DNA of 40,297 nt from Ignavibacteria bacterium (GTDB taxonomy: Bacteria; Bacteroidota; Ignavibacteria; UBA10030), in contig VGVZ01000004.1 in NCBI GenBank assembly GCA_016873805.1, positions 130,864 to 171,160 on the forward strand, in the 5' to 3' direction. Of the stretch, positions 3,104 to 36,098 are shown in pieces. Position numbers and translations under genes: made by a program. The notes below the pieces were generated by a model that saw nothing but the letters and a program-made list of their open reading frames with translations, was not told the origin of the DNA and searched no databases. The stretch's first letter is position 1; every line of letters starts with the position of its first letter.

Positions 3104-3754
3104 TCAGAGATCCTTGATAACCTTGATCACTTTCCACATGAAGGTGATATCCTTCTTCTTTACTGCCATCGGTTCATATTCGGGATTGAGGGGAATCAGA
3201 TAAACGAGCTGTTCCTCAATCTTGATCTTCTTCACGGTGTCCTCGTCACTCACCCGTACCACACAGATGTCGCCATTCCGAATGTCGAGCTTGGGACTCA
3301 CGACGATGGTGTCTCCATCCTCGATCCGTGGTGCCATGCTGTTTCCTTTTACCTCGAGGGCGAATGCCTGACTGTCGTTCACATCGTCCACAGAGATATA
3401 GCGTTCGACGTAGTCGGGGTGGAACGTGAGACTCGGCGCGCCTCCCGGAACAGAGGAGAGTAGCGGCAGTGAAACGAGTTGGATCTTCTTGTACCTGCCT
3501 GTCGGAAGAGGGAGGATGTTCGGCACGGGATGGTCGCGGACATACATTTCCCCCTCGCCGGTCAAGAGCCAGTGTGCCGAGACATCCGTGTGCTTCGCAA
3601 TCTTCATCAAGTAGTTTCCTGCGGGAATCTGTTCACCCTTCTCCCATCTCTGAAGCGTTCGCGTCGCGATATCGAGCTTCGCGGCGAGACGTGCCTGTTC
3701 GAGGGATTTTGCGAGACGTGCTTCCCTGATCCGCACTCCAATGGCATTCTTCAT
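3104..3754 (-). CDS. XRE-type repressor with LexA-like S24 autoprotease domain
   Basis: An N-terminal helix-turn-helix (about residues 5-60; IATRTLQRWEKG is the recognition region) is followed by a linker and a peptidase S24 domain. Nucleophile Ser139 lies in GNSM and the general-base Lys175 in TVKKIK. The likely self-cleavage site is Gly104-Gly105 in VPGGAP, where LexA and phage repressors have Ala-Gly. This is the architecture of CI/LexA-like repressors that self-cleave when RecA filaments form. The ATG at 3754 is preferred over the one at 3772 because it has GGAG five bases upstream. The upstream ATG would lie inside the CGACA-N4-TGTCG palindrome at 3767-3780, the likely autoregulatory operator. 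The same palindrome occurs in the promoter of the family B polymerase (27437-27450), so this protein probably controls a small damage-inducible regulon. No phage genes are nearby. Confidence 0.88.
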   Translation of the reverse strand: MKNAIGVRIREARLAKSLEQARLAAKLDIATRTLQRWEKGEQIPAGNYLMKIAKHTDVSAHWLLTGEGEMYVRDHPVPNILPLPTGRYKKIQLVSLPLLSSVPGGAPSLTFHPDYVERYISVDDVNDSQAFALEVKGNSMAPRIEDGDTIVVSPKLDIRNGDICVVRVSDEDTVKKIKIEEQLVYLIPLNPEYEPMAVKKKDITFMWKVIKVIKDL

Positions 3755-3766
3755 GACAGCTCCATG

Positions 3767-3780
3767 CGACATTTATGTCG
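3767..3780. promoter_or_regulatory. Putative operator of the S24 repressor (autoregulation)
   Basis: CGACATTTATGTCG is a palindrome with 5-bp arms CGACA/TGTCG (6 bp with the next A/T pair) and a short A/T centre. It lies 12 bases upstream of the preferred repressor start at 3754. On the minus strand it reads ACGACATAAATGTCG, against ACGACATATTTGTCG in front of the family B polymerase (13 of 15 identical). A -35 TTGACA lies upstream at 3813-3808, with a weak -10 TTCATT at 3790-3785, which would put the palindrome over the transcription start. Confidence 0.7.
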
Positions 3781-3784
3781 TTAC

Positions 3785-3813
3785 AATGAAATCAATTTGC
3801 ATGATAGTGTCAA
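3785..3813 (-). promoter_or_regulatory. Probable promoter of the S24 repressor gene
   Basis: The minus strand shows a consensus TTGACA (3813-3808), a 17-base spacer and TTCATT (3790-3785). The -35 is perfect and the -10 is weak. The putative operator lies immediately downstream. Confidence 0.5.
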
Positions 3814-8029: not shown

Positions 8030-9055
8030 CTACTCGACGACCCATGGTTCCAGCAGATTGCCGCCGATTCCTTCGAGAAAGCGTGAGGGCTTCGTGAGAA
8101 TCAGTCCGGATTCCCGATCATAGATGTTCATCGGATACGTGATGTAGAGGTGTTCTTTCCCCCGAGTGCAAGCGACATACATCAATCGTCGCTCTTCTTC
8201 CAACTCTTCCGGATCAAGCACGGAACGCATGCTGGGAAATCGCCCCTCCAGAGCATAGATGACAAAGACGGTATTCCACTCAAGTCCCTTTGCACTGTGG
8301 ATCGTCGATATCGTCAGGTATTCGGTTTCGTGGCCGGGGGCTTCGACATCGACGATACTTTCATTCGGCGGTTCGAGGGCCATGTCCGTTAGGAGGGAAG
8401 GGACATCATGGTAGCGTTCGGTGATGTTTAGAAACATCTCGAGGTCCTTTTTGCGCTTGTTGTGATCGTCGTATCGGGCCCGAAGGAGCGGTTCGTAGTA
8501 CTGCATGACGTGGTACGCTTTCTCAGCGGGGGGAATGGAGGGGGAAGCCACCTGACGAAGTGTGGCAAAAAGCTTCCGAACATTTTCGGGATGATGCTGA
8601 TATTCGGTCCAGAACTTCGATGTCACCGTTGCCTGCGGAGCCCCCGCGAGCGGGGCAAGCCGCTTGGTGAGGATATCGTCGATCACCTTTTCCGCAGTTC
8701 GAGGTCCCACGCCGTCAAGAAGCAGCAGGATGCGATTCCACGCCACCACGTCGCGTGGATTTTCAAGCACCCGAAGATAAGCCACCACGTCTTTGACATG
8801 GGCTGTTTCCACAAACTTGAATCCTCCAACCTTGACGAAGGGGATATTCGCCTTGCTGAGTTCGATTTCGAGATCGAACGAATGAAAGGATGAGCGGAAG
8901 AGGACAGCAATCTCCTCAAGAGGAATTCCTTCCTCGCGCAACTCGAGGATCCTCTGAACGACAAAGCGCGACTGAACATTCTCGTCCGACGCGATCACAA
9001 GCTGCGGAAGCTCGCCCCCCTCTTTCTTCGTGTAGAGCCGCTTGAAATACATCAT
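8030..9055 (-). CDS. UvrD/PcrA-like helicase, C-terminal half (separate ORF)
   Basis: This is the downstream half of a superfamily 1A helicase, 341 residues. It carries motif V (TISTIHSAKGLEW) and motif VI (LMYVACTRGKEHLYI), plus the 2B-type region between. It lacks Walker A and B, which are encoded by the preceding ORF (9052-10056). The two frames overlap as ATGA, and GAGGAG lies just before the ATG pair, so it can be translated on its own. The combined length of about 675 residues fits a normal UvrD/PcrA protein. A sequencing error, a real frameshift or a genuine two-subunit helicase are all possible. The N-terminal sequence (YFKRLYTKKEGG) joins the other half exactly where intact homologues continue. 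Confidence 0.85.
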   Translation of the reverse strand: MMYFKRLYTKKEGGELPQLVIASDENVQSRFVVQRILELREEGIPLEEIAVLFRSSFHSFDLEIELSKANIPFVKVGGFKFVETAHVKDVVAYLRVLENPRDVVAWNRILLLLDGVGPRTAEKVIDDILTKRLAPLAGAPQATVTSKFWTEYQHHPENVRKLFATLRQVASPSIPPAEKAYHVMQYYEPLLRARYDDHNKRKKDLEMFLNITERYHDVPSLLTDMALEPPNESIVDVEAPGHETEYLTISTIHSAKGLEWNTVFVIYALEGRFPSMRSVLDPEELEEERRLMYVACTRGKEHLYITYPMNIYDRESGLILTKPSRFLEGIGGNLLEPWVVE

Positions 9056-10056
9056 CTCTCCTCATCGATGAGGGCTGGACTCCGCCGTAAAATCTCGTTT
9101 GCGAGGTCGAGAATGGGCTGCGTGCTCCGGTAATTTTCCTGAAGCTTGATCACTTTGCAGGGAGCGAACTCCTTGGGGAAGGAGACAATGTTCTTGATGG
9201 TCGATCCCCGGAACCCGTAGATCGCCTGTGCATCATCGCCGACCACCATGACATTTCGGTATCTGTGGCCGAGATGGGCGACGATATCGGCCTGAATTCG
9301 ATTCGTATCTTGATACTCGTCGACCATCACGTACTTATATCGATCGGAAATCGCGCGGCGGACGGCCTCGTTGTTCCTGAACAGTACGACAAGATTGACG
9401 AGAAGATCATCATAGTCCATCAAATTGTGTACCTTCTTGTAGCGCTCGTACGCGTGATGAACGCTCTGGATGTCGGCTTCCTGTTCAAGGTAGTGGGGAT
9501 AGTCGAGCGCGAGTAAGTCGGTCAGCGAGGTCTGCGTGTTGACGGATCGGCTGTACAAGTCGTAGAGGGTTTCCTTACGCGGGAATCGTTTTTCCTTTGT
9601 ATCGAATTTCAATCGTGTGCGGATGAGATTGATGACGTCCTCGGCGTCGCCTTGATCGAGGATGGAATATGTGGGCTCGAATCCGATAAGGGACGCGTGC
9701 TTCCGGAGAAGCATGTTGGCAAAGGAATGAAAGGTACCGCCGGAAACGCGTTCGCAGCGGCTGTCAAGAAGTATGGCCGCGCGCCGGAGCATCTCCTGTG
9801 CGGCCTTGCGCGTGAACGTCAGGAGCAGAACGTTTTCGGGCTTCACTCCGAGTTCCACGAGATATGCCACGCGGTAGACGACTGTCTGCGTTTTTCCCGT
9901 TCCGGCCCCCGCGATGATCAGATGCGGGCCGTCAACCGAGGTGACAGCTTCAAACTGCGCGTCGTTCAATTCACGCCGGTAGTCCAGGGTGAACGTGCGG
10001 GGCTGGACGAGGGTGAGATCCCCGGAGCCGAGAGGTTTAAGCTTGTATTTCTTCAT
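9052..10056 (-). CDS. UvrD/PcrA-like helicase, N-terminal half (separate ORF)
   Basis: This 334-residue ORF carries the Q motif (LNDAQFEAV), Walker A AGAGTGKT (49-56), motif Ia (TFTRKAAQEM), Walker B/motif II VDEYQD, motif III GDDAQAIYGFRG and motif IV LQENYRST. It then stops at TGA right after RRSPALIDEER. The remaining motifs are in the overlapping ORF 8030-9055, one base out of frame. Superfamily 1A helicases unwind 3'-5' in repair and replication restart. The gene starts 17 bases after the MBL hydrolase stop in the same minus-strand operon. There is no homopolymer slippery run at the junction, which argues against simple programmed slippage. Confidence 0.87.
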   Translation of the reverse strand: MKKYKLKPLGSGDLTLVQPRTFTLDYRRELNDAQFEAVTSVDGPHLIIAGAGTGKTQTVVYRVAYLVELGVKPENVLLLTFTRKAAQEMLRRAAILLDSRCERVSGGTFHSFANMLLRKHASLIGFEPTYSILDQGDAEDVINLIRTRLKFDTKEKRFPRKETLYDLYSRSVNTQTSLTDLLALDYPHYLEQEADIQSVHHAYERYKKVHNLMDYDDLLVNLVVLFRNNEAVRRAISDRYKYVMVDEYQDTNRIQADIVAHLGHRYRNVMVVGDDAQAIYGFRGSTIKNIVSFPKEFAPCKVIKLQENYRSTQPILDLANEILRRSPALIDEER

Positions 10057-27427: not shown

Positions 27428-27456
27428 TTGACAACACGACATATTTGTCGTATCCT
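27428..27456 (+). promoter_or_regulatory. polB promoter with operator in the spacer
   Basis: A perfect TTGACA (27428-27433), a 17-base spacer and TATCCT (27451-27456) form a sigma70-type promoter. Its spacer contains the whole palindrome CGACATATTTGTCG (27437-27450). Repressor bound there would block RNA polymerase. The ATG at 27507 is about 45 bases from the expected transcription start. Confidence 0.75.
27437..27450. promoter_or_regulatory. Putative S24-repressor operator at polB
   Basis: CGACATATTTGTCG has arms CGACA/TGTCG around TATT. The same arms with an A/T centre occur in front of the S24 repressor gene at 3767-3780. Together with one adjacent A, 13 of 15 positions agree. Confidence 0.7.
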
Positions 27457-27506: not shown

Positions 27507-29834
27507 ATGTTCCGTACCATCGCCGGCTGGCTCTTCGATGCATATCCATCCCCGCAGGGGATCACCCTCTGGTTCATCGACCGCAACGGTGAGAAGCACG
27601 TAGCGCTCTTTCCCTTTACTCCCTCATTCTTTCTGCACCTGAATGATGGCGATATTGCGCGTGCGGAGGTGCTGGCGCGGCGTTCACCGGCTCCATTGAC
27701 GCTGACACGAACGGAACGGCGCGAAATCTATTCCAACAATATCTGGAATGTCCTGCAGATCTCCGTTCACGATGCGACGCAGTTCAAGGCCGTGTCGTCG
27801 TACTATGCGCGCTTCTTTCCTCACTTCGCGTTCTTCAATTCCGATCTTCTGCCGGCACAACTCTTTTTCTACGAGACACAGCTCTTTCCTCTCGCATATG
27901 GTGAGTACCGTATCGATGACAACGGCCGGTTGATGGAGTGGACGCTCCTTGATGGACGCGAGCGTGTGGAGTACGAACTTCCTCCCCTTGCCATCATGAT
28001 TATCCGGAATGCCAACGATTTTGTTCCTCCGAAATACCAGCGTACCCTGCAGCTCGAAATCGAGTACGACGGAACGACCTGTACTCTCGAGCAGGAACAC
28101 CCGCGTGAAGTTCTCGAAACGCTGAACTGGCATCTCTATCGCTTCGATCCCGACATCATTCTCACTGAGTACGGCGACGCCGTTCTTCTTCCCAAGCTTG
28201 TCGATCTCTCGCGTCGCATGAATCTTCCCCTCCTTCTCAACCGCGACCAGGGAACGGACTACAACGTATCGCGCGAAACGAGCTTCTGGCAGTACGGCAA
28301 GGTGGTACACAAAGATGGCGCGTTTGAGCTCGCGGGGCGATGGCATGTGGATGTCGATAATTCGTTTACGGTGGTGGAATCGGATCTGGACGGCCTGTTC
28401 GAGCTGGTGCGACTGACCCAGATACCGGGACAGAGACAGGCACGGGCGAGCATCGGGACCGGCCTTTCATCGCTTCAGCTTTCGTGGGCGTATCGGAACG
28501 GCATTCTCATTCCGGCGAAGAAGCGGGAACCGGAAGAATTCAAACCGGCATCCACGCTCCTGCTGGCCGATCGGGGGGGACTCATTTTTCAGTCCCCCGT
28601 CGGATATCACGATGACATCGCTGAGCTTGATTTCGTCTCGATGTACCCATCAATTATGGTGAACCATAATGTTTCTCCGGAAACGGTAAACTGCCGCTGT
28701 TGCGAGAACACGAAGGTGCCGGAGCTGGAGTACACGATTTGTGAAAAGCGGCAGGGAATTATTCCCTCCACGCTGAAGATGGTGGTGGAGAAGCGGGCGT
28801 ACTATAAACAGAAGAAGAAGGAGTTCAAGGGGAAGGATGATGCGCTGTTTCACCGGTACGACCGACGGCAGAATTCTCTTAAGTGGATGCTGGTGTGCTG
28901 CTTCGGATATCTGGGATACAAGAACGCGCGTTTCGGCCGCATTGAAGCGCACGAATCGGTGAATGCGTTCTCCCGCGATGCAATCTTGTTGGCCAAAGAA
29001 ATCGCCGAGAACCAGGGATATGAGCTTGTCCATGCGATCATTGACTGTATGTGGCTCCGCAAGCCGGGGGCGACCGAACGCGATTATGAAGATCTCTGCC
29101 GCGTGATTGCCGGGCGCGTCGGCATCGATATTTCGCTTGAAGGAATGTACAGCTGGATCGTCTTTCCGGCTTCGAAGATGGATCCTGTGATGCCAACGGC
29201 CAACCGGTATGCCGGACTGTACCGGCATGGCGAGCTGAAGATCCGTGGAATCGAATCGCGCCGGCATGACACGCCGAAGTTCATCAAAAATATGCAGGCG
29301 GCAATGCTGTCACGCATGAATGTGGCCCGGAACACCGAAGAGGTTGAAGCGATGGTGCCGGACCTGCTCGATATCGCGGGGGGATATGTGTCGCTGCTGC
29401 GAAGCGGCCGCGCCAATCCGATGGATCTTGTTCTGCGGCGACGAATTACCAAAGAGCCGGAAGAGTACACCAACAACAGCATCAGTGCGGTTGTCTCGAA
29501 GATGGTGGATGCCATGGGCATTCATCTTGCCGCCGGTGAATCGATCGAGTTCATCATCCTTGATCAGTCGGGGAAGAAGAAACCGGAGAAGGCGAAACCG
29601 ATTGCGCTCTACGCGTTTGAGGATGGATACGATATCGAGAAGTACACGGAGCTCGTGCTAAAGGCGATTGAAACGCTCCTGCTGCCGTTCGGTTATCCGA
29701 TGGAAAGGCTGGAAGAGCACTTTGATATTCCAACACCTCGTCGAACACGTGCCGTCAGGGAAATGAATCGTTTCCAACGCCGGCAGATTCCGCTGGTGAA
29801 AGAGCTATCGCTCTTCGAGGGTCTGGATGTATAG
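27507..29834 (+). CDS. Family B DNA polymerase, PolB2-like with degenerate catalytic motifs
   Basis: This 775-residue family B polymerase keeps motif A (DFVSMYPS, Asp375) and a recognisable motif B (KWMLVCCFGYLGYKNARFG from Lys459). In motif B the usual KxxxNSxYG has V, C and F at the N, S and Y positions. Motif C, normally YxDTDS, reads AIIDCMW, with only the second acidic residue (Asp513) left. These substitutions are those I associate with the PolB2 group of archaea and bacteria, implicated in DNA damage tolerance in Sulfolobus. The exonuclease Exo I and II regions (LEIEYDG and DPDIILTEYGD) are also diverged, so proofreading is doubtful. A TTG at 27480 could extend the N-terminus by nine residues. 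The promoter carries an operator shared with the S24 repressor. Confidence 0.9.
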   Translation: MFRTIAGWLFDAYPSPQGITLWFIDRNGEKHVALFPFTPSFFLHLNDGDIARAEVLARRSPAPLTLTRTERREIYSNNIWNVLQISVHDATQFKAVSSYYARFFPHFAFFNSDLLPAQLFFYETQLFPLAYGEYRIDDNGRLMEWTLLDGRERVEYELPPLAIMIIRNANDFVPPKYQRTLQLEIEYDGTTCTLEQEHPREVLETLNWHLYRFDPDIILTEYGDAVLLPKLVDLSRRMNLPLLLNRDQGTDYNVSRETSFWQYGKVVHKDGAFELAGRWHVDVDNSFTVVESDLDGLFELVRLTQIPGQRQARASIGTGLSSLQLSWAYRNGILIPAKKREPEEFKPASTLLLADRGGLIFQSPVGYHDDIAELDFVSMYPSIMVNHNVSPETVNCRCCENTKVPELEYTICEKRQGIIPSTLKMVVEKRAYYKQKKKEFKGKDDALFHRYDRRQNSLKWMLVCCFGYLGYKNARFGRIEAHESVNAFSRDAILLAKEIAENQGYELVHAIIDCMWLRKPGATERDYEDLCRVIAGRVGIDISLEGMYSWIVFPASKMDPVMPTANRYAGLYRHGELKIRGIESRRHDTPKFIKNMQAAMLSRMNVARNTEEVEAMVPDLLDIAGGYVSLLRSGRANPMDLVLRRRITKEPEEYTNNSISAVVSKMVDAMGIHLAAGESIEFIILDQSGKKKPEKAKPIALYAFEDGYDIEKYTELVLKAIETLLLPFGYPMERLEEHFDIPTPRRTRAVREMNRFQRRQIPLVKELSLFEGLDV

Positions 29835-32893: not shown

Positions 32894-34228
32894 ATGTCGG
32901 ACCTCTTCTCCAACGACAAATTGCCCGACCGCCGCAAACCAGCTCCGGTCTCCGCGCCGCTCGCAGAACGAATCCGACCCAAAACGCTGGAGGAGTTCGT
33001 CGGACAGCAGCATCTGATCGGAGCGGGGAAACCGCTGAGACTGATGATCGAGCAGGATGCGGTGTCGTCGATGATTTTCTGGGGCCCGCCGGGAACCGGA
33101 AAGACGACGCTCGCCCGGATCATCGCCAATCACAGCAAGTCAGATTTCCATCAGCTCAGCGCCGTGGCTGCAGGGGTGAAGGATGTGCGTGAAGTGATTG
33201 CCCGCGCGGAGAAGGTCCGGAAGCATCAGCACACATCGACTCTCCTCTTTATCGACGAAATCCACCGCTTCAATAAGGCACAGCAGGATGCGCTGCTCCA
33301 CAGTGTGGAAGAAGGAGTGATCACGCTGATCGGGGCAACAACCGAGAATCCATCGTTCGAAGTGATTGCGCCGCTTCTCTCCCGCTGTCCGGTCTATACG
33401 CTCGAATCGTTGGGACAAGACGAGCTGAACAGCATCATTGATCACGCGCTCCGGACCGATATTGTTCTTTCGAAGCGAAAGATCGCGATCGAGGATCGTG
33501 AGTACCTCATGCTCCTTTCGGGCGGAGACGGGCGCAAACTGTTGAACGGGCTGGAGAACGCCGTCCGCCTCACGAAACCGGAACCGGATGGGAGCGTCAC
33601 GGTAACGAAGAAGAAGATCGAAGAGGCATTCCAGCGGAAATACACGCTGTACGACAAGGCCGGCGAGCAGCACTACGATATCATCTCCGCGTTCATCAAG
33701 AGTCTGCGCGGAAGCGATCCCGACGCCGCGGTCTACTGGATGGCCCGTATGCTCGACGGCGGAGAGGACCCGAAGTTCATCGCGCGGCGGATGGTGATTC
33801 TTGCATCCGAGGATATCGGCAATGCCGATCCGTATGCGCTGACGCTCGCGACATCGTGCTTCACGGCGATCGACTATGTCGGCATGCCCGAAGCGAGGAT
33901 CATCCTGGCGCAAACGGCAGCGTATCTGGCCTCGGCTCCGAAAAGCAATGCGTCGTATCGCGCGATCGAATCGGCCTGGCACGACGTGCGCACGCTCCCG
34001 AATCTCCCTGTCCCTCTTCATCTCCGCAACGCCCCCACAAAGCTGATGGAAGATCTGGGGTACGCGAAGGACTACAAGTACAGTCACGACTTCGACGACC
34101 ATTTTGTCGAACAGCAGTACCTGCCGGATAATCTGAAAGAGAAGACGTACTACGAGCCGACGGAGATGGGAAAAGAAAAGGATATCAAAGCCCGGCTCAA
34201 AGCATTGTGGAAAAGGAGGCAGAAGTGA
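32894..34228 (+). CDS. rarA: Replication-associated recombination protein RarA/MgsA
   Basis: This 444-residue AAA+ clamp-loader-like ATPase has the family N-terminal block ([22 protein letters not shown]), Walker [10 protein letters not shown], Walker [20 protein letters not shown], a sensor 1 [12 protein letters not shown] and the C-terminal domain ([20 protein letters not shown]-like). It acts at stalled replication forks with SSB and RecA. The stop overlaps the next gene as GTGA. No CGACA-N4-TGTCG operator is seen in front of it. Confidence 0.96.
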
Positions 34229-35400
34229 CCTCCCGGGAACGAATGGCGACGGCGATGCGTCTCGGGATTCCCGATCGTGTGCCGGTGATGTGTCAGCTTT
34301 CCCTGGGACACTATTTTCTTCATGCCGGTCTCAAACCGATGGACATCTGGTACACATCGGAGGGATTTGCCGAGGCGCTTGTGACTTTGCAGAAGCGCTA
34401 CCGCTTCGACGGCATTCTCGTCAACCTCCCCGGGCGGGAGCCGGACTATGAGGATTTCATTGAGAGCATCGAACGCGGCGACAGAGAGAGCATCATCCGT
34501 TGGAAGAACGGCGACTACACCCTCTTTCCCGACGATGACAACCCGCACTACTTTCAGTCGGATGGAACGAGATACTTTCCTGCGTTTGGGGAGATTGATC
34601 CGGAACAGCTCTACTACGTGGAGCCGTGGGATGTCGCGGACATCTCGTATCCGCACATGTGGGGATTGAGAGAGGAGGGGCGCGCTTTCCATGATTTCTT
34701 TCCATCGTGCCACTTCGACACAATCCGGAAAGTACGGGAGAAAGCGGGGGAGAGTGTTTCGCTTCATTCAGAGATCTATTCTCCCTGGTCGCAGTTCCTC
34801 GAGCTGTTGAACTATGAACATGCGCTCGTTGCGATTCTCGATGATCCGGGAAAAGCAAAGGCGTGTCTCGAACGATTGACGGAAGGCGCGGTCGATCTCG
34901 CGACGAGGCAGGCATCGTGCGGCGTGGATGCTGTTCTCATCTCCTCTGCCTTTGCCGGCGGTGGATTTCTCTCGCCGCAGCATTACGAGGAATTTGTTCT
35001 TCCGTACGAGAAGAAAGTGATTGAGGGAATTCATGCGAAGCATCCTATGCCGGTCTACACGCACACGTGCGGCAGTATCGGTGATCGTCTTGACCTGATG
35101 GTCGCAACGGGAACGAACGGTATCGACACGCTCGATCCTCCTCCGCTCGGCACTGTTGATCTCGCAGAAGCAAAGAAAGCTCTCGCGGGACGAACGTTCA
35201 TCAAAGGGAACATCGATCCGGTGAACACGCTGCTTCTCGGGAACAGTGAGACGGTCAGGAATGATGTGAAACGGCGTCTCGGTATCGGGATGCCCGGAGG
35301 TGGATACATTCTGAGCTCCGCCTGCTCCGTCTCGCCGCACACGCCGCGCGAGAATATTGAAACGCTTGCTCTTGTCGCCGAAGAAGCGGGGGTGTACTGA
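34225..35400 (+). CDS. Uroporphyrinogen decarboxylase (URO-D) superfamily protein
   Basis: This 391-residue TIM-barrel protein of the URO-D family resembles the corrinoid-methyltransferase-like branch (MtaA/MtbA, CmuA-type) more than HemE. The N-terminus [21 protein letters not shown] and the conserved FLSPQHYEEFVLPYEKKVIEGIH are typical. A metal-binding-like YTHTCGS (His/Cys near residue 280) stands where zinc ligands lie in the methyltransferases. The true HemE N-terminal RxxPVWxMRQAGR is missing, so haem synthesis is unlikely. GTG 34225 is preferred over GTG 34207 because GGAGG precedes it at a good distance. The stop overlaps the next gene as TGATG. Confidence 0.85.
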   Translation: MTSRERMATAMRLGIPDRVPVMCQLSLGHYFLHAGLKPMDIWYTSEGFAEALVTLQKRYRFDGILVNLPGREPDYEDFIESIERGDRESIIRWKNGDYTLFPDDDNPHYFQSDGTRYFPAFGEIDPEQLYYVEPWDVADISYPHMWGLREEGRAFHDFFPSCHFDTIRKVREKAGESVSLHSEIYSPWSQFLELLNYEHALVAILDDPGKAKACLERLTEGAVDLATRQASCGVDAVLISSAFAGGGFLSPQHYEEFVLPYEKKVIEGIHAKHPMPVYTHTCGSIGDRLDLMVATGTNGIDTLDPPPLGTVDLAEAKKALAGRTFIKGNIDPVNTLLLGNSETVRNDVKRRLGIGMPGGGYILSSACSVSPHTPRENIETLALVAEEAGVY

Positions 35401-36098
35401 TGCCATCCGTGCAGTCAACGTCTCTTGTCCGCAGCTCAGCGCAAAACATGGCGCAAGCCTTCCGTGAGCCGCGCGGAAAAGTCTATCTCCTTTACGGGGA
35501 CAACCTCGTCTTCCAGTTTTCACACCGCATCGGGGCCTCGCTTGCAGGGCAGGGGGGATCGATTGCCGTCGTCGACGGAGCGAACCGATTTGATGTGCAC
35601 GCGGTCGTGCGATTCGCGCAGGAGCGTCGTCTTGATCCCGAGGCACTGCTCGACCGGCTATACATTTCGAGGGGATTCACCTGTTACCAGATGGAGGCCG
35701 CGGTGGCCGAGCGACTTCCCGGCTTTCTCAAGCAGATCGGTTCTCACACGGCGTTTATTTTCGGGTTGCTCGATACGTTGTACGACGAGCAGGCGCCTCT
35801 TCGTGACGTCCGGGCGATTCTGAAACGTGTGGTGAGCACACTGAATACGATGAAGGATGAGGGGATTTCAATTCTCCTGACGTGCAGTGATTGGAGGGTT
35901 CATCCCGAGGAGCGCAATCAATTGTTTGCGGAACTGAAACGCTCTGTCGATCGTGTGTATCGTCTGGAGATGGGTGAAGAGAAGACGCCACAATTGTACC
36001 TTGAGCGGGAACGACACGATGCCGCTGTGCCCCGACCGCTGAAGAAGGGAGAGAATACCGATGGGAAGAACCGTACGAACGTTCACAAACATTATTGA
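35400..36098 (+). CDS. RecA/RadA-like protein without Walker A, function unknown
   Basis: This 232-residue protein looks like a RecA-fold core. VYLLYGDNLVFQFSHRIGASLAGQGGSIAVVDGANRFD has the strand-loop-helix pattern of a P-loop but no GxxxxGK[ST]. A hydrophobic strand ending in Asp (AFIFGLLDTLYD) is followed by ISILLTCSDW, where sensor strands would be. ATP hydrolysis is therefore doubtful. The start overlaps the URO-D stop (TGATG), and its 3' end overlaps the next ORF by 38 bases, so expression is tightly coupled. An accessory or structural role with the URO-D protein is possible. I do not recognise the family by name. Confidence 0.55.
   Translation: MPSVQSTSLVRSSAQNMAQAFREPRGKVYLLYGDNLVFQFSHRIGASLAGQGGSIAVVDGANRFDVHAVVRFAQERRLDPEALLDRLYISRGFTCYQMEAAVAERLPGFLKQIGSHTAFIFGLLDTLYDEQAPLRDVRAILKRVVSTLNTMKDEGISILLTCSDWRVHPEERNQLFAELKRSVDRVYRLEMGEEKTPQLYLERERHDAAVPRPLKKGENTDGKNRTNVHKHY

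Follow-up and report, generated by a model that had tools for sequence, protein, structure and literature searches.

The question raised by this locus is why a gene for a phage-type repressor and a gene for a family B DNA polymerase carry the same palindrome in front of them. A sequence-only reading of the window (the whole 40,297-nucleotide stretch of contig VGVZ01000004.1, Ignavibacteria bacterium assembly GCA_016873805.1, that was analysed) had proposed that the two share an operator, CGACA-N4-TGTCG with an A/T centre, within an SOS-like regulon under the control of an XRE-HTH S24 repressor and not of a winged-helix LexA. A pattern scan found CGACA-N4-TGTCG exactly twice in the window (Table 1), in front of the repressor gene and in front of the polymerase gene as had been described, the latter copy lying exactly in the 17-bp spacer of a TTGACA/TATCCT promoter; the agreement of 13 of 15 bases between the extended sites ACGACATAAATGTCG and ACGACATATTTGTCG was likewise borne out. 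Dinucleotide shuffles of the window gave 0.09 expected copies, and two or more were reached in 1 of 100 shuffles. What had to be revised in the shared-operator description was the gene starts: an ATG at 3772 falls within operator 1 and the repressor probably starts at 3754, which is preceded by GGAG and in whose register Met is nearly invariant among 22 aligned orthologues, and the most likely polymerase start, in the register of its homologues, is the ATG at 27507. The probable repressor promoter, recognised by eye, would place operator 1 over the transcription start. As a separate observation, a UvrD-type helicase on the reverse strand of the window (8030-10056) is encoded by two ORFs with a 4-base overlap, which is either a frameshift or a real two-piece gene.

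Table 1. Coordinates of the features discussed (window positions, except for the DUF72 gene, which is numbered in locus L002)
Feature	Position	Strand	Basis or remark
XRE-HTH / S24-peptidase repressor, 216 aa	3104-3754	-	PF01381 + PF00717
Operator 1	3767-3780		CGACATAAATGTCG read on the - strand; 12 nt 5' of the repressor start codon
Probable repressor promoter	3785-3813	-	TTGACA 3813-3808, 17 bp, TTCATT 3790-3785; by eye
UvrD-type helicase, C-terminal domain	8030-9055	-	ORF and domain match
UvrD-type helicase, N-terminal domain	9052-10056	-	ORF and domain match
polB2 promoter	27428-27456	+	TTGACA 27428-27433, 17-bp spacer 27434-27450, TATCCT 27451-27456
Operator 2	27437-27450		CGACATATTTGTCG; occupies the spacer of the polB2 promoter
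PolB2-type family B DNA polymerase, 775 aa	27507-29834	+	PF00136
iRadA-like protein (mutasome subunit)	35400-36098	+	46% identity (183 residues) with the gene immediately 5' of polB2 in L140
PPB2-like small protein, 97 aa	36061-36354	+	41% identity over 80 residues to the protein between iRadA and PolB2 in L146
DUF72 gene (C53 locus)	L002 923-1870	-	PF01904

The helix-turn-helix domain of the repressor matches PF01381/PF07022 and not the winged-helix domain PF01726 of canonical LexA, and its score against the NCBIfam LexA model (72.9 bits) falls below the 110.95-bit cut-off. It is the sole PF00717 match in the genome, and the only PF01726 match is weak (27.9 bits), lying in an 851-aa frame on contig C21 away from the S24 match; with no PF01726/PF00717 pair in the genome, canonical LexA was rejected. 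Sequence matches relate the N-terminal domain to the P22 c2 and 434 repressors and the C-terminal domain to LexA, UmuD and CI. An AlphaFold model (pLDDT 79.8, pTM 0.53; 22 sequences) predicts five N-terminal helices and an all-beta C-terminal domain, in which no helix of at least four residues is seen, and Foldseek places the N-terminal domain on P22 c2 at 1.3 Å and the C-terminal domain on CI at 2.5 Å. Ser139, Lys175 and Gly105 (the P1' residue) are invariant across the 22 aligned orthologues, and from their motif context we take Ser139 and Lys175 to be the Ser-Lys dyad of S24 peptidases. The expected scissile bond of the window protein is Gly-Gly (residues 104/105) and not the Ala-Gly of LexA: VPGG is present in 20 of the 22 aligned rows of family f1, the window's own included, and VPAG in the other two, as well as in all ten rows of families f2, f4 and f5 (32 rows together, among which some genomes appear more than once).

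The polymerase had been likened to the SOS-controlled E. coli polB product (Pol II), a parallel that we replace, since the protein is instead an archaeal-type PolB2 mutasome subunit. Among NCBIfam models those of the PRK05761 type fit it best, with scores below the cut-offs, and motif C, which is DTD in Pyrococcus abyssi PolB, is IID here (4flt alignment), so that the first Asp of DxD is gone; the same substitution is reported for most PolB2 in section 3.1 of PMC11791011, the paper from which we also take the view of PolB2 as an error-prone polymerase. Homologues of polB2 occur in 73 of the 98 genomes of the order. In the window, genes for iRadA-like and PPB2-like proteins, the latter overlapping the 3' end of the former, follow polB2 at a distance of 5.6 kb, and not in the bacterial order iRadA-PPB2-PolB2 that is kept in relatives such as L146, L178, L183 and L185; neither protein has a Pfam match, and their identities rest on pairwise matches and position. 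Upstream of these two genes there is no strict site, a one-mismatch site at 34096, within the ORF before them (32894-34228), being the only candidate.

Whether the motif stands out in the rest of the genome depends on how it is written. The bare pattern CGACA-N4-TGTCG occurs in 14 places in the 3.2-Mb genome, against about 7 obtained by scaling up the window shuffle rate, whereas the form with an A/T centre, CGACAWWWWTGTCG, occurs in only three, before the repressor, polB2 and a DUF72 gene on contig C53, and no other place comes within one mismatch of ACGACANWWNTGTCGT. The other 11 bare matches lack the promoter geometry (0 of 11), and 9 of them lie inside ORFs of at least 100 aa. It is the A/T centre and the flanks that set the strict sites apart: a chance origin was rejected for A/T-centred sites in promoters and not for bare CGACA-N4-TGTCG. 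The C53 site sits within TTGACA-3-site-TATCCT, the same geometry as at polB2, with a second, weaker site 31 bp away, and a SRAP gene (PF02586) lies convergent beside the DUF72 gene. One bare match, on C36, proved to be a terminator-like hairpin followed by T's, and C14:14691 (AAGACAATTTTGTCTT) was dropped as a candidate as it falls within a 558-aa ORF. Family f6, in which the repressor is missing, also has 0-5 copies of CGACAWWWWTGTCG per genome; since raw counts per genome do not discriminate, we used the placement of sites instead of their number.

We next turn to the conservation of the site in related genomes. All 59 repressor orthologues of the order were examined, unselected, and a perfect YGACAWWWWTGTCR was found within 600 bp upstream of the repressor in 46 of them and a site with at most one mismatch in 56; reversed motifs gave 0 and 1, and shuffles 0 and 0.15, for the same two counts. 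Absence upstream of orthologues, which had been named as an outcome that would speak against a shared operator, is therefore not what is seen, the exceptions being G017, which has the repressor and no site, and G035 and G036, without a site within 600 bp of the repressor. The conserved form is YGACA-W4-TGTCR, and among 94 unique sites A is favoured at -1 and T at +14, flanking the core. The promoter geometry is conserved as well: 41 of 74 unique perfect sites (window, L002 and related loci) lie in TTGACA-3-site-TATnnT with a 17-bp spacer and in one register, where one mismatch was allowed in the -35 and the -10 was taken as TA....T, and at one further site the gap is 4 bp and the spacer 18 bp. 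At perfect sites elsewhere in the fetched stretches this geometry was present in 3 of 25; the other 22, many of them inside unrelated genes, indicate that a sequence match by itself is not a target. Tandem pairs less than 60 bp apart with at least one perfect site are spaced by 31 or 32 bp in 41 of 41 cases (redundant loci included), and pairs of two one-mismatch sites in G001, G002 and G019, outside these 41, by 30 bp.

DUF72 genes were examined as well. Among the best-scoring 30 DUF72 loci (of 48 genomes), a perfect site lies within 350 bp in 14 of 24 from repressor-bearing genomes and in 1 of 6 others. Within the repressor-bearing genomes the site is present at 14 of 14 evaluable homologues of at least 55% identity (G023, with 45 bp of upstream sequence, was left out as not evaluable) and at none of the nine of at most 51% identity.

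A natural comparison for the polymerase is offered by genomes in which the same cassette lies beside LexA or in which the repressor is missing. We compared 45 polB2 loci with at least 600 bp of upstream sequence, G030 and G049 (less than 600 bp) having been dropped from 47. A site with at most one mismatch was present in 25 of 27 cassettes from repressor-bearing genomes in which LexA is not adjacent (two of them only with one mismatch), and in only 2 of 18 cassettes that are LexA-linked or come from repressor-less genomes (G003 and G040). Fourteen of the 16 cassettes in repressor-less genomes had no site, nor had any of the five LexA-linked ones (G017, the second copy in G027, G077, G088 and G089). 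The two misses among the 27 have sites nearby or elsewhere: in G053 about 5 kb upstream, before DUF72, and in G052 at the DUF72 locus on another contig. Later stretches (G003, G004, G024, G025, G041, G005, G058 and others) were chosen for a listed site, which makes the figure of 25 of 27 partly selected. Among the best-scoring 30 polB2 loci of the 73 genomes, chosen regardless of site, 12 perfect sites were found in flanks of up to 1.5 kb, all in the 22 cassettes that are repressor-bearing and not LexA-linked and none in the 8 others, and longer stretches revealed sites further upstream for several of the remaining loci. Fisher tests gave 3e-8 for the cassettes and 0.006 for repressor versus LexA, values that overstate the significance because related genomes are not independent. 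Overall, the sites at repressor, DUF72 and polB2 genes, together with a genome holding one S24 protein and no paired LexA, support the SOS-like regulon under an XRE-HTH S24 repressor that had been predicted from the DNA sequence.

The distribution of the two types of regulator over the order is uneven. Repressor orthologues are present in 59 of 98 genomes (the window's own included), one in each and the others at 50-77% identity, in families f1, f2, f4 and f5, and are missing from f3 (0 of 3) and f6 (0 of 22). A PF01726 and PF00717 pair denoting a true LexA, with coordinates paired by hand, is present in 21 of 98 genomes, of which 14 (13 from f6) are without the XRE repressor and seven have it; G012 and G081 have, in addition to these 21, partial PF01726 matches beside an S24 match, and 25 genomes, several of them incomplete, have neither the repressor nor any of the 21 LexA pairs. 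Six of 14 extracted lexA upstream regions (L220, L221 and L224-L227, all f6) contain a different operator, CTGTA-N6-TACAG, which we take to be close to the E. coli SOS box. Beyond the order, a sample of 395 genomes of the phylum gave repressor matches at E<=1e-40 in 10, all within this order. Seven loci were found in named genome records, four of them strong (55-62% identity) and from Ignavibacteria, Ignavibacteriae or uncultured Chlorobi, and three partial matches from cyanobacteria.

Two further observations were made on the side. G027 has two PolB2 cassettes, one on C30 (L084) beside the XRE repressor and with sites, the other on C44 (L222) beside LexA and a SRAP-like gene and without sites. 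Upstream of iRadA, L220, L221, L222, L229 and L231 share a conserved leader, TTGGGTYGTTGA..TCAAGCCCG, with a hairpin and then a T-rich stretch behind it; over the five sequences the hairpin has 13 pairs, 5 of them changed on both sides in at least one sequence. Rfam gave no match on the sister-genome loci with this leader, which is possibly an attenuator of the LexA-type PolB2 operon.

The genome under study has repressor, DUF72 and polB2 at separate places, but in seven relatives (G045, G046, G047, G048, G053, G054 and G055) a single contig carries all three inside 12 kb, and in most of the seven the repressor and DUF72 genes are divergent and share tandem sites; iRadA-like genes precede polB2 in relatives, and an SPL-like radical SAM ORF, identified by eye, lies 3' of polB2 in L128, L129 and L140. 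Sites also occur before further genes. A Y-family polymerase carries one in G043 (L166), and perfect sites were found at 6 of 30 Y-family loci, all f5 (L192, L199, L201, L206, L207 and L212); the other 24, some of them in repressor-less genomes, have no perfect site, and the locus of this genome's own Y-family polymerase (L204) has no site. Radical SAM genes bear sites in L182 (by Pfam) and in L152 and L167 (by eye). The operator occupies the promoter spacer of a DUF5131 gene (L150, G035) and of TcmP-like genes (L153 and L155, G049; both called by eye, Pfam giving only PF22560 for L153), which suggests that these genes belong to the regulon in G035 and G049. Three further perfect sites embedded in promoters were noted in L156 (G056), L159 (G055) and L160 (G057), and in many other stretches fetched around perfect sites no repair gene was seen.

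The sites, their geometry and conservation, their link to the repressor gene and the absence of LexA lead us to consider it likely that the repressor is a phage-repressor-like substitute for LexA that controls a PolB2 mutasome regulon. A repressor dimer, with a helix-turn-helix like that of P22 c2 or 434, would recognise CGACA-N4-TGTCG with an A/T centre; at the polB2 and DUF72 promoters, where the 17 bp separating -35 from -10 are taken up by the operator, bound repressor would exclude RNA polymerase, and at its own gene, where the operator probably overlaps the transcription start, it would repress itself. When DNA is damaged, RecA filaments would prompt the repressor to cleave itself at the hinge preceding its S24 domain. 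Its loss would induce the genes for the PolB2 translesion polymerase, DUF72 and the repressor. In relatives the iRadA-PPB2-PolB2 operon would also join the regulon and, in some of them, so would genes for a Y-family polymerase, an SPL-like radical SAM protein and DUF5131/TcmP-like proteins.

The cleavage step admits a different reading, in which the repressor binds its sites and derepression comes about through Clp proteolysis, an antirepressor or another stress signal, Gly-Gly being cut poorly by RecA-stimulated self-cleavage. The Gly at P1 in 20 of 22 rows of the window's family would fit it, as would HdiR, whose full derepression requires Clp processing according to the account in PMC8565304; given that the dyad and Gly105 are invariant, that Ala-Gly is retained in orthologues with the same operator and that several site-bearing genes are DNA repair genes, we think it unlikely.

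The binding step could in turn be doubted, inasmuch as direct binding of the repressor is deduced from the site and G003 and G040 have sites without a detected repressor, so that another DNA-binding protein might recognise CGACA-N4-TGTCG and the repressor gene be just one of its targets. This is made very improbable by the site that 56 of 59 genomes have in the 600 bp before the repressor gene, by its absence from 5 of 5 LexA-adjacent cassettes and by a palindrome of fixed spacing, as fits a dimeric HTH_3 repressor. We give almost no credence to the view that the protein is an immunity repressor of a prophage or mobile element and the second site a chance match, even though its N-terminal domain resembles P22 c2 and 434 and the phage matches listed (10 of 243 records) are annotated as CI-type or LexA-family at 31-34% identity, the phage and plasmid matches listed together (10 of 243 and 15 of 345 records) being CI/XRE-S24 relatives at 27-34% identity. 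Such an element would hardly account for a single orthologue in each of 58 of the 97 relatives, at 50-77% identity, for the lack of any match outside the order among 395 phylum genomes (E<=1e-40) or for the conserved targets and promoter geometry.

A LexA substitute of this kind would not be new in kind, because phage-type S24 repressors run the SOS response in Bacteroidetes, where the main text of PMC8565304 (Sanchez-Osuna et al. 2021) describes non-canonical LexA proteins with operators CTAA-N5-TTAG or GGA-N5-TCC and an extra alpha-helix predicted in the C-terminal domain. By that account they share with the protein studied here an S24 peptidase joined to a PF01381 phage-type HTH, a genome without canonical LexA, palindromic operators of fixed spacing, autoregulation (here predicted) and targets that include error-prone polymerase, SplB-type and SRAP genes. 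They differ in operator (here CGACA-N4-TGTCG), in the core target, which here is the PolB2 mutasome, and perhaps in the C-terminal domain, in which the model here shows no helix of at least four residues. The word "Ignavibacteria" is absent from the main text of that paper, and the regulator here belongs to Ignavibacteria-type genomes. In the same paper HdiR of Streptococcaceae, a group without LexA, is also a phage-type S24 repressor that controls its own gene and an error-prone polymerase, but it clusters with Streptococcus phage repressors, belongs to another clade and has UmuC as its polymerase. FddR of Francisella, as described in PMC13148647, is likewise a co-opted, autoregulated phage-like S24 repressor with divergent targets, yet its operator is GTG-N11-CAC and canonical SOS genes are not induced in Francisella. 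By analogy with these three, the regulator here is predicted to act as they do.

The target set is that of a known neighbourhood, as lexA, SRAP and DUF72 are reported near bacterial polB2 by Timinskas et al. 2025 (PMC11791011), in whose main text the word "operator" does not occur. As in the PolB2-iRadA-PPB2 mutasome portrayed there and by Makarova et al. 2014 (PMC4104785), PolB2 here lacks the first Asp of DxD, iRadA-like and PPB2-like genes are present, and DUF72 and SRAP lie nearby in some relatives. The known mutasome has LexA among its neighbours, as have cassettes in sister genomes studied here, whereas the controlling repressor proposed for the window is not LexA, and the window, unlike the known mutasome, splits polB2 from iRadA-PPB2. 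The new elements here are the regulator and its operator; among the open-licence papers listed by the searches, titles and the beginnings of abstracts gave no LexA substitute or CGACA-N4-TGTCG operator for Ignavibacteria.

On a wider view we lean towards the reading that, within one order, an archaeal-derived PolB2 mutasome has come under two damage-sensing repressors that are unrelated to each other: in one family a winged-helix LexA, with CTGTA-N6-TACAG at several lexA promoters, and in four families an independently recruited phage-type repressor acting at CGACA-N4-TGTCG in the promoter spacer. If true, an SOS master regulator would have arisen from a phage repressor independently for at least the third time, and the states before and after the swap would still be visible, including genomes with both. 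With the same cassette standing beside a true LexA in sister genomes, the order would offer a natural experiment in regulator replacement. The regulator would extend the theme of phage repressors turned LexA substitutes beyond the groups in the cited papers and provide a regulatory setting for the little-studied bacterial PolB2 mutasome and DUF72, and for Ignavibacteria-type genomes that lack LexA it would mean a predicted damage response in which the operator is defined and the targets are listed.
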